64,000 bases of DNA, taken from positions 124,001 through 188,000 of the forward strand of contig CATQIH010000020.1 in NCBI GenBank assembly GCA_958296015.1, in the 5' to 3' direction. Source of the DNA: Cyclobacteriaceae bacterium (GTDB taxonomy: Bacteria; Bacteroidota; Bacteroidia; Cytophagales; Cyclobacteriaceae). A model generated the notes under the pieces. The model was not told the origin of the DNA and did not search any database. It was given only the letters and a program-made list of their open reading frames with translations. The translations under genes and the position numbers were made by a program. Of this stretch, positions 51,359-56,167 are shown in pieces (position 1 is the first letter of the stretch; every line of letters starts with the position of its first letter).

Positions 51359-52468
51359 CTATTTCACTTCATCTACTGCCTCCAGATACTTGCGGATCAC
51401 GAGCTTTTCGTCAAAAAGCATTTCTACTCTTTTTCGTCCGTTGCGTCCCATTGCTGCCAGGGCATCGGGGCGCAAGGATAGTATTTGCTCCATTTTATCG
51501 GCCAGATCTGCGGCATTTCTCACCTCGCACAACAACCCATTGCTTCCGTCTTCTACCACATGGCGGCAACCCGGCACATTGGTGGCCACAATGGGTTTGC
51601 CCAGGCTGGCGGCTTCCAGCAGTGTTCTGGGCAGCCCCTCCCGGTAAGAAGGCAGCACCACACAATCTGCGGCATGGATGGCCGACTGCACATCGTCTGT
51701 TGTGCCCAAATATACAATCAACCCCTCGCTGACCCAGGATGACAGCAACGCCTCACTGATGCCTCTTTTGTGCCCGTTGGCTTTATCGCCTAATAGCTGA
51801 AAACAAGCTTTTACACCACGTTTGCGCAAGATTCTGATCGCATCGATGTATTCTACAATGCCTTTGTCATAAATGATGCGCGAAATAACCAGAAAGGTAA
51901 ATTCCTTATCAGGTAACCTGTGCGTGTACCGGGGCCGGAAGTCATCCAGGTTGATGCCCGAACCCGGAACGGCATCTGCAATCTGCCTGCGCACCAGTTT
52001 TTGTGTTATAAAAAGCTGGTAATCGTCTTCGTTCTGAAAAAACACCTTCTTGGGAAAACGAAAGGCAAGTTTATACAAAACTTTGGCAATTTCAGAAGAC
52101 AATCCTTTTTTAAGAAACACAGTACCCAACCCACACACGTTGTTGATAGACGGAATACCGAGCAGCGTAGCGGCCAGCGTTCCGTAGGTGTTGGGTTTCA
52201 CGGTATAGTGTAGCACCAGATCAGGCTTCAGTGCCTTATATGACTGGTATAGATGCCACACCAGCAAAGCATCTTTCACAGGATTCACACCACTGCTATC
52301 CATCTCTACGGCTCTAAATTCGTATCCCAGGTCTGTTAGCTTCCAGCTGTAGGTATCTTCCGGTGCTATAATTACGATCTGATGACCCTGATCGCGCAGC
52401 GCGCTGATAAGTCCCAGTCTGAAATTGTACACGTTCCAGGAAGAATTCAATACAATGGCAATCCTCAT
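51359..52468 (-). CDS. Glycosyltransferase family 4 protein
   Basis: FLVISRIIYDKGIVEYIDAIRIL, LPSYREGLPRTLLEAASLGKPIVATNVPGCRHVVEDGSNGLL. Confidence 0.94.
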   Translation of the reverse strand: MRIAIVLNSSWNVYNFRLGLISALRDQGHQIVIIAPEDTYSWKLTDLGYEFRAVEMDSSGVNPVKDALLVWHLYQSYKALKPDLVLHYTVKPNTYGTLAATLLGIPSINNVCGLGTVFLKKGLSSEIAKVLYKLAFRFPKKVFFQNEDDYQLFITQKLVRRQIADAVPGSGINLDDFRPRYTHRLPDKEFTFLVISRIIYDKGIVEYIDAIRILRKRGVKACFQLLGDKANGHKRGISEALLSSWVSEGLIVYLGTTDDVQSAIHAADCVVLPSYREGLPRTLLEAASLGKPIVATNVPGCRHVVEDGSNGLLCEVRNAADLADKMEQILSLRPDALAAMGRNGRKRVEMLFDEKLVIRKYLEAVDEVK

Positions 52469-52883
52469 ACATGCTTTTGGTTACACGCTAAATAGCAGAT
52501 GCTGGTAACAGCTCATATTCAATGGCGAAATATACTATTAAGCGCATGTATTACCATTCAAGGGCATACAGGTGGAGGCTGGGCAGGTGTAATTTTAAGG
52601 TATATTCTTGGAGAATGTCCGTTGTTGTACTGTAAGCCAGAAAACACTAGGGAAGTTACCAGACAAAAAGGCATCAATAATAACAAAGATATCTTTGCAT
52701 ACTGCTATTATAATCTTTAAAGATAAGCATGTATTTGCGTTAATACATGTGTAATAAAAGTGGCAAAAAAGAGCAATGTGTGTGCTTCCAACAGGCTCAA
52801 TGGTATCACACTGGCAGGCTCGCTTAACAGATAAAAGGATTTATTGTCCCATAAAGTACAAGGTGTGTTTTAAAGGTAATATG

Positions 52884-53240
52884 CTCGCCGACGTTTGGTG
52901 AGTAGCTGTCCTCAAGGCACAACGCCTTCTCCCACTTGTCGGGAGACTATCCCCAGCCTGCAACGGCTTGCCAACAAATGGTGAGTAGCAATCCCCAAGG
53001 TGTAATGCCTTGCCAACGATTGGTGAGTAGCTTTCCCGTCTTGCGGACGGCTTGCCGACGATTGGTAGTGGCCGTCCTCGAGGTGCAATACCTCGCTGAC
53101 GTTTGGCAAGTAGTTATCCCCGAGGTGCAACGCCTTCTCACAATTGGCAGGTAGCATTTTACTGCATGCAATGGTTTGCCGACCGAATGGCAGGTGTATT
53201 TTATTGCCTGTAGGTTGCTGTCAGCACTATTGGCTGGCTT
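52884..53240. repeat. ~42-bp imperfect tandem array (about 8-9 units) with two hairpins per unit
   Basis: Units such as cttgccaacaaatggtgagtagcaatccccaaggtgtaatgc / cttgccaacgattggtgagtagctttcccgtcttgcggacgg / cttgccgacgattggtagtggccgtcctcgaggtgcaatac / ctcgctgacgtttggcaagtagttatccccgaggtgcaacgc. Confidence 0.85.
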
Positions 53241-53260
53241 TATTGTCAAACTAAACACAA

Positions 53261-53660
53261 GCGGACGCTCAATGCTGTCGACTTAAGAAATATTAATCGC
53301 TCGGCTCCTGCCGACCGGCGTCCTGCCGAGTGATCAGTATTTTTGAGGCTTCCGCGCCGCGTCGGCCAGCCTCAGAAGGCAGGATGCCTTTTTATATTGT
53401 TCACTCGCGGGACGCGAGCGACTGACAACGAATCCTCAAGTTGACCGGGCACGGCGGCAGCATTGAGCGGACGCTTGCGTTAGGTCGTTTTCAATAGATC
53501 ATATACCCTCGCGGATAGCTTGTCGCCGAATGGTGAGTAGCGTTTTATGAGAACAATGAACTTACAACTGTTTGCAACTCCCCATCTCGTTTCAGTCTGT
53601 GACTGAAACGAAGAGATACACTCAAGTCTTAGACTGCGTGTCCCGGACTGAAGCTAGTAG
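53261..53660. repeat. Cluster of GC-rich palindromes and inverted repeats
   Basis: gcggacgctcaatgctgtcgactta vs inverted copy at ~53436-53475; ctcgcgggacgcgag; cgtttcagtc-tgt-gactgaaacg (53588-53610). Confidence 0.7.
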
Positions 53661-53719: not shown

Positions 53720-56167
53720 CTAGGTATACAAATCTTTGAAGCGGGCAGGGTCGTATTCTGCCATCAGGCTGTATACCTTGTCAAAGACGTTCTCGGCATT
53801 GGGTTTAGAGTAATAGTCGCCATCAGAGCCGTAGGCGGGGCGGTTGGCTGCCGCTGTGATGGTGGCTGGCTTGGAATCAAGATACTGATACCCGCCCTGC
53901 TCTTCCAGCACTTTCTGCATCATATAGGCTGAGGCACCGCCGGGCACATCTTCGTCGGCAAAGATGATGCGGCTGGTCTTTTTCAGCGACTCCACAATGG
54001 TATGGTGAATATCAAAAGGAAGCAAGGTCTGCACGTCGATGACCTCGCAAGAAATAGCATATGTAGCCAGTTGTTCAGCGGCTTCCATCACGATGCGGCA
54101 CATGGAGCCGTAGGTCACGATGGTTACGTCGCTGCCTTCTCTGAGGACTTCCGGGTGGCCCAGGGGCAGGGTAAACTCACCCACATTGTCAGGTATGCTT
54201 TCTTTGAGGCGGTAGCTGTTGAGGCTTTCGATCACCAGGGCCGTATCATCGGAGCGAAGCAAAGTATTGTAGAACCCGGCTGCCTGCACCATGTTGCGTG
54301 GCACCAGGATGTAGATACCCCGCAGGCTTCCCAGCAGCGCACTCATGGGCGAACCCGAATGCCCAGATGCCTTCCAGCCGGTGACCGCGTGTGCGGATGA
54401 TCAGCGGTGCTTGCCTGCCGCCCCATCGTACGGGTAGCGCATAGAGGCCAGATCATCCGAAAGCGTAGCCAGCGCATAGTAGATATAATCCAGGTACTGT
54501 ATCTCGGTGATAGGTTTCAGGCCGCGCATCGCAGCTCCTATTCCCTGACCGATGATGCTGGGTTCGCGGATGCCGGTGTCGGTCACGCGCAGTTCGCCGT
54601 GCTTTTCCTGCAACCCGGCGCAAATCCTTGGTTCACCGTCGCCGATCTTGCCTACATCTTCGCCAATGGCAAACACGCGGGGGTCGTGTGTGAGGGCGTG
54701 GTCAAAACAGGCCTGTAATACCTCGCGCCCGTCTACGGGTTTGGAATGATCAGAAAATACCGGAGGAACCACGGGTACTTTCAGTGCCGAACGCTCACTC
54801 TCTGAATAGAGATGAGAACGGTAACGCTGGCGGTTGTCTTCCTGCTGCTGAAACAGCCAGTGGAGCAGGTGCTTTCTTTCTTCCACCTCATCGCCTACAG
54901 AAACGCGCAGTGCATACTTAGCTGCTACGGTGCCGGTGGCGCGGATGGGATTGATTTCTTTTTTGAGCTTTGCGTTGATGGCCTGTAGCTGGTCTGCCTG
55001 TGCGCTGACTTTGGCAAGGCTTCCAATCAGCCTGGAGAGATACTGTAACTCCTGGTCTATTTCCTGCCGATAGGCTTTCCATGCCCGATTTTTGGCTTGC
55101 TTGGCTAGTTCCAGGGCTTCACGCTCTATCTGGTCTAGTTGCTCGGCAGAAGCAAAGCCATTGGACAATATCCACTCCCGCATCTTTCTGTTGCAGTCGT
55201 ACTCGCGCTCCCAGCTTAGTCTCTTTTTGGATTTATACCGCTCATGTGAACCGGAGGTAGAATGGCCCTGCGGCTGCGTAAGCTCTTCTACATGCAGCAG
55301 CACCGGCACATGGGCTTTACGAGCCAGATCAGCTGCTACCTGGTATGTTTCGCAGAGCTTCTCATAATCCCATCCTTTGACGGTGAATATCTCCAGCCCG
55401 GCAGCAGGGGCTTCCCGTTCGTCATCGGTACGCTGAAAACCCGATAGTGCTTTGGAAATGCTCAGCCTGGTGGTATGGTACTCTTTGGGCACAGAAATAC
55501 CGTAATCATCATCCCAGATAGAAAAGATCAGGGGCACCTGCAGCACACCGGCGGCGTTGATGGTTTCCAGAAACATGCCCTCAGAAGTGGCCGCATCGCC
55601 AATGGTAGCAAACGACACTTCGTTGCCCCGGTCAGAAAACTTGGTATAACCTTGCAGGTCAGGGCTTTCGCGGTATAACTTGGAAGCATAAGCAAAGCCA
55701 AGTGCCTTGGGGATTTGCCCGGCAGTAGGCGACAGGTCGGCCCCAGAGTTGTAGCGTTGCTTTTGGTTGGTAAACCTGCCTGTTTCCGGATCAATGGTGG
55801 CAGAGCCGAAGTGGGAGTTCATAGAGCGGCCACCGGAGGAAGGTTCTGCCTCCAGGCTGGCATGTGCATAAAGCTGTGCAAAGAACTGTTGTAGGGTTAT
55901 CTCTCCCAGGGCAAATATAAAAGTCTGGTCGCGGTAATAACCCGATCTGAAATCACCTTTTCTAAAAGATTTGGCCATAGCGATCTGGACTACTTCTTTG
56001 CCATCGCCAAAGACGCCAAATTTTGCTTTGCCCATAAATACTTCTTTCCGCCCGATCAGACTGGCGTGGCGGCTTTGCCAAGCAATGCTGTAGTCGCTTA
56101 GGATTTCGTCTACAGATAATTTACTCGCAATGGCTCTATCTTCCTGCAAAGTTCTGGATGCTTCCAA
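53720..56167 (-). pseudogene. Fused 2-oxoacid (2-oxoisovalerate-type) dehydrogenase E1 alpha+beta, broken at 54362-54434
   Basis: ORFs 54401..56167 and 53720..54346 are in the same frame; the region between reads [34 protein letters not shown] if three single-nt homopolymer insertions are removed. Confidence 0.8.

Follow-up and report, generated by a model that had tools for sequence, protein, structure and literature searches.

A 42-bp tandem array in a Cyclobacteriaceae genome, a possible orphan member of the phased dyad arrays that accompany DUF6261 genes in Bacteroidota

Plasmid iterons and partition sites (parC/ParR) are direct repeats that lie near the gene of a partner protein and are spaced in whole helical turns. 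REP/BIME elements, which go together with RAYT transposases, carry GTAG/CGTC palindromes (PMC3733652). Our subject is a tandem array in a 64,000-nt stretch of a Cyclobacteriaceae bacterium contig (the whole of which we call the window), whose relatives accompany genes of DUF6261 (PF19775), a family for which we found neither a function nor an association with arrays in the open-access literature, where the one paper that names it is, judging by its title, on another subject. The same literature yielded no equivalent among 41/42-bp tandem repeats and REP-like elements in Bacteroidetes; subscription papers and preprints lay outside the search, and a prior description is possible.

Evaluating the intergenic region between a group-1 glycosyltransferase gene (51359-52468, minus strand) and an E1-type dehydrogenase gene (from 53720, minus strand), we found that the raw sequence, Tandem Repeats Finder, a direct-repeat search and a sequence profile agreed on an array spanning 52887-53258, with seven clear 42-bp units and two degenerate ones, which bears out the preliminary description of a ~42-bp tandem array at this place. 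The array scores 32 in lag-41/42 self-match, where the best of 2000 shuffles reached 11, and its tandem period is a lag of 42 (0/2000 shuffles as high). By the family sequence profile there are seven recognizable units of 40-42 bp each (52887-53178), and the direct-repeat search placed repeats at 52884, 52967, 53009, 53051, 53092 and 53133. The features of the array are as follows.

52837-52884, plus strand: 5' leader common to other arrays of the genome (TTATTGTCCCATAAAGTACAAGGTGTGTTTTAAAGGTAATATGC), alignable with the leaders of DUF6261-linked and orphan arrays
52887-52928, plus strand: unit 1, profile match at E 2.2e-7
52931-52970, plus strand: unit 2, diverged and with its own 5-bp stem CTCCC/GGGAG, profile match at E 0.003
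52971-53012, plus strand: unit 3, profile match at E 5.8e-8
53013-53054, plus strand: unit 4, profile match at E 9.8e-4
53055-53094, plus strand: unit 5 (about 41 bp), profile match at E 0.08, and at E 4.8e-6 with the profile of a smaller set
53095-53136, plus strand: unit 6, profile match at E 9.7e-8
53137-53178, plus strand: unit 7, profile match at E 0.009
53179-53258, plus strand: two degenerate terminal units with a GTCAGC..GCTGGC stem at the end, from sequence reading, aligned to the terminal units of sister arrays
53519-53544, plus strand: isolated partial unit, 81% identity over 26 nt, marginal by profile (E about 2; 2.4)

The last of these is the isolated related copy that had been noted near 53517: the match itself is real, and its assignment by profile is marginal. 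Right after the array lies a 27-bp inverted repeat (53254-53481; AACACAAGCGGACGCTCAATGCTGTCG / CGGCAGCATTGAGCGGACGCTTGCGTT) with arms that are 85% complementary and have 174 nt between them; it is MITE-like, and its core has no exact copy in the fetched loci besides the window. The dehydrogenase, E1/transketolase-like (53720-56167, minus strand), is present as two ORFs split near 54346-54401, by a frameshift or an assembly error. Terminal inverted repeats around the leader and array (CAGCCAACAA / TTGTCGGCTGG), suggested by eye, proved inconsistent across arrays and are not claimed. Searching the window against Rfam returned two tRNAs only, with no known family matching the array, and the array was sought in phage records and found in none. 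A blastn search with the window array in 38 relatives likewise gave no real match, because array sequences drift.

Within the source genome, blastn and the profile recovered eight related arrays, at C4, C9, C11 (two), C12, C20 (the window array), C27 and C33, and a ninth, diverged array lies at C50. Those examined are intergenic, and several have in common a leader of about 50-85 bp right before the first unit. At C4, C33 and C11, Pfam assigns the gene that diverges from the arrays to DUF6261, and the sequence of the window array matches these arrays, which precede DUF6261; the fourth DUF6261 gene of the genome, at C50, has a 42-bp array upstream too. The total is therefore nine arrays, four directly upstream of the only four DUF6261 genes and five orphans, including the window array, which has no DUF6261 gene directly downstream and is called an orphan because its neighbors are the glycosyltransferase and the E1 dehydrogenase. 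All five orphans have a leader or unit in common with the gene-linked arrays. The orphan at C9 (L053, 6699-6961) has its first unit on the plus strand and the others on the minus strand, so its units run toward one another and make up a large inverted repeat. Three of the four DUF6261 genes (L052, L055, L164) are followed downstream by one for a large protein whose N-terminal region is TPM-like.

Extending the comparison across Bacteroidota, we drew on about 80 loci, none longer than 16 kb, in which all intergenic regions of 100 bp or more were scored by ungapped self-match at lags 38-44. Scores of at least 14 were reached by 57 of 72 DUF6261-upstream regions vs 11 of 402 other intergenic regions of the same loci, and scores of at least 20 by 47/72 vs 2/402, with a Fisher p of 8e-44 that is indicative only, as loci within one genus are not independent; more weight attaches to the spread over several families. 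Restricting the comparison to regions of at least 300 bp gave 42/58 vs 1/124. Where the top score reached 14, the best lag was, with two exceptions, 41 or 42 or double that. The two strong controls are a 41-bp array (lag 41) elsewhere in a DUF6261 locus (L108) and a 21-bp repeat (L104). A second collection, assembled by protein similarity from named genomes, had an array in 35 of 39 loci, one of these positives (L204) being a 19-bp repeat of which a harmonic falls in the lag band. This collection partly overlaps the first, as in many Chryseobacterium loci (L119 and L179, for example, are the same locus), and adds Kordia, Aquimarina, Ancylomarina, Flavobacterium and Flammeovirgaceae MAGs. Arrays lay upstream of DUF6261 in 68 of 83 cases and downstream (within 500 bp) in 0 of 83, and about a fifth of DUF6261 loci have no array by the lag self-match method. 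Many Chryseobacterium loci (L179-L193) have an HTH_3 (XRE) gene, the array and DUF6261 in this order on the same strand, an upstream HTH_3 gene being common in Chryseobacterium only.

Across the 82 arrays the period is 42 bp in 54 and 41 bp in 28, and the sequences fall into about 20 groups without detectable similarity at E<=1e-3, the largest of which is held together by permissive single linkage. The family itself is uncommon, occurring in 4/60 genomes of the host's taxonomic family, 5/248 of the phylum and 47/150 in the family of G085. The rule was also predictive: an unannotated faecal contig, the 'Bacteriophage sp.' clone MT837725.1 (L275), was found only through its distant DUF6261 (25% identity) and also bore a short lag-41 array and a TACATTTG motif upstream, its DNA being possibly bacterial rather than phage. 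We are confident that a DUF6261 gene and a 41/42-bp array just upstream form a two-part module across Bacteroidota.

One symmetry center of these arrays lies within the unit and a second where two units join, and dyads appear in the array views (e.g., CCCGAAA..GTTGCACCC(T)TGCAACA..TTTCGGG). Half-units are self-complementary beyond column-permuted nulls (mean z 2.8, p<0.05 in 67% of 49 arrays), and in 20 of these 49 the two best hairpin centers are 20.5-21 bp apart, or half a period. Between relatives, F. covae and F. columnare (Flavobacterium) differ by exactly one 42-bp unit gained or lost, with otherwise near-identical flanks, and in two Weeksellaceae/Kaistella MAG loci the array letters differ for the most part between flanks that are well conserved. 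Different Chryseobacterium species also have orphan arrays at matching sites, for example upstream of recR (L223, L220) and beside an M28-type peptidase gene (L229, L221), these two gene names coming from reading the protein sequences and not from a family search.

The preliminary description had quoted hairpin stems from the window array, where they are indeed present, and had read them as covarying; this second claim we do not retain. In aligned units the quoted stems are out of register, the center of ccgtc-ttgc-ggacgg being 3 nt from that of aaggc-acaac-gcctt, and with centers up to 3 nt apart they are therefore not homologous pairs. Consensus folding of 37 genome units (RNAalifold) gave zero pairs, the conserved hairpin in 36 distinct units paired in 63.5% of cells vs 64.8% for shuffles, double changes not being in excess, and compensatory changes pooled over 82 arrays numbered 55 vs 58 +/- 11 expected. 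A covariation check on larger alignments had been named as the measure of the claim, and no significant covariation was found in them. Stem columns did vary less than a permuted null, with 622 one-sided changes vs 739 +/- 40. Local folding of the window array against dinucleotide shuffles gave z -2.9 on the plus strand and a weaker z -1.1 on the minus strand, whole-array folds pointing likewise, and local folding of the sister arrays at C27, C12 and C4 was no better than shuffles. A protein-coding repeat is not indicated, as 41-bp periods occur in sister arrays and in the 28 arrays of the wider set, and many sister arrays with this period cannot keep a reading frame. The window array is non-coding and its form matters more than its letters, and to this extent the earlier suggestion of selection for structure rather than protein stands, minus the stem covariation offered as evidence for it.

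As to which nucleic acid bears the form, the two strands show no difference in folding energy (73 arrays, p=0.17), and folding without strand bias argues for DNA dyads over structured RNA. Taken together with a period of four helical turns and dyad half-units, this favors a helically phased protein-binding platform in DNA. Our favored explanation, to which we give slightly less than an even chance, is that the window array belongs, as an orphan, to a class of phased dyad arrays linked to DUF6261 and serves as a DNA platform for protein. The mechanism that we infer for such a platform is put forward tentatively. The array would act as double-stranded DNA, with 42 bp making four helix turns and dyads about 21 bp apart lying on one face, where protein dimers would sit side by side in a row. 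The likeliest occupant would be DUF6261 itself, or an XRE-type regulator encoded upstream where present, and occupancy may lead to autoregulation of DUF6261, with a nucleoprotein patch arising at orphan arrays.

DUF6261 is predicted to be all-helical (AlphaFold, mean pLDDT 87.7, pTM 0.52) and has an invariant RD pair (D70, R73, D74). Its charge is near neutral (family median pI 8.0; 6.3-7.7 for the proteins of the source genome), and it counts against the platform that the family as a whole is not basic and resembles no known DNA-binding fold, which makes direct DNA binding by DUF6261 no more than putative. Structure searches of PDB and viral structures gave no match at E<=0.001, PDB sequences gave weak helical matches only, and PADLOC, PHROGs and NCBIfam returned nothing meaningful. 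Also against the platform are the weak hairpins of several of the genome's own arrays and, at many loci, a promoter-like motif before the array, which would put the array in a leader RNA. It is a doubtful proposal, though one we think worth stating, that DUF6261 and its array are a nucleoprotein system not yet described, whose helical protein family reads spacing and dyad shape and not sequence, such that letters drift, the four-turn period stays fixed and orphans are docking sites.

The promoter-like motif, TAnnTTTG (the Bacteroidota -7 motif), occurs within 150 bp before the array in 23 of 81 loci vs 5.0 expected and, more weakly enriched, between array and gene in 10 of 74 vs 3.65 expected, so lineages probably differ in their transcription of the array. 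The motif before the array is one ground for a leader-RNA device, in which the array would be transcribed as the DUF6261 5' untranslated region, its hairpins binding DUF6261 or titrating a factor and thereby controlling translation or stability. Some arrays do end 24-60 bp before the start codon, and hairpin content is enriched, yet the loci with the motif between array and gene, the missing strand bias expected of G-U-tolerant RNA, the absence of compensatory covariation, the orphans with no gene to control and an exact 41/42 period that RNA does not evidently need make such a device unlikely, if still to be reckoned with. Rather less probable is an operator array of an XRE-type repressor with DUF6261 merely the regulated target. 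XRE dimers bind dyads, and 17 Chryseobacterium locus entries (with some loci entered twice, once per collection) have an HTH_3 gene immediately upstream in the same orientation, with an HTH-like gene at one unrelated locus (L160); the gene is absent, however, from most loci, including all four of the source genome, and the orphan arrays have no such neighbor in the loci read.

A mobile origin, with REP/BIME-like hairpins moved by a Y1 (RAYT) transposase and DUF6261 as a passenger, would fit the dispersed, intergenic, palindromic copies with a common leader and the GTAG present in many window units. RAYT genes do occur about 1-3 kb from DUF6261 on the opposite strand in six loci of several Chryseobacterium-group genomes (L136, L137, L138, L144, L149, L168), and where the two genes are adjacent the array sits in the gap between them. 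Despite this adjacency the candidate fails the converse test and was rejected: RAYT loci with DUF6261 have the array (4/4), whereas of the 26 RAYT loci that lack DUF6261, 24 show no 41/42 array and the other two have 21-bp repeats. The linkage is moreover confined to one group of genera, no Y1 transposase lies beside any array of the source genome, and the arrays have their period in common and not their sequence. We consider this origin very improbable. A GTAG/CGTC tag at the stem foot speaks neither way, GTAG being frequent in the units of the source genome and no common tag in other lineages. Hardly credible, finally, is neutral satellite DNA, with tandem repeats made by slippage and palindromes by chance; it would accommodate the changes in unit number between relatives and the rapid sequence turnover in the Kaistella and Weeksellaceae MAG loci, but it would not give about 20 unrelated sequences the same 41/42 period or place arrays only 5' of one gene family.

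Among described systems, CRISPR resembles these arrays in the regular 41-42-bp period and leader-like flank seen here and differs in that here the whole unit repeats (both halves), with no unique spacers and no cas-like partner. Iterons and parC share direct repeats near a partner gene and spacing in whole helical turns, whereas DUF6261 arrays are chromosomal and not conserved in sequence between loci; no relation of DUF6261 to Rep, ParR or ParB is detectable, and plasmid records contained no relative of the DUF6261 member searched. REP/BIME elements are likewise short intergenic palindromes, some tandem, dispersed and with a dedicated neighboring gene; the arrays differ from them in partnering DUF6261 and not a Y1 transposase, in combining a fixed 41/42-bp period with free sequence, and in being few per genome. 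Phased arrays with a 41/42-bp unit and free sequence before DUF6261 are apparently an undescribed kind of DNA array, unusual in that a fixed period with free sequence lets one ask whether a protein reads DNA geometry instead of letters. Their protein partner, in turn, is a known family, and through the arrays DUF6261, so far a mystery, gains a likely physical partner that opens it to direct assay.
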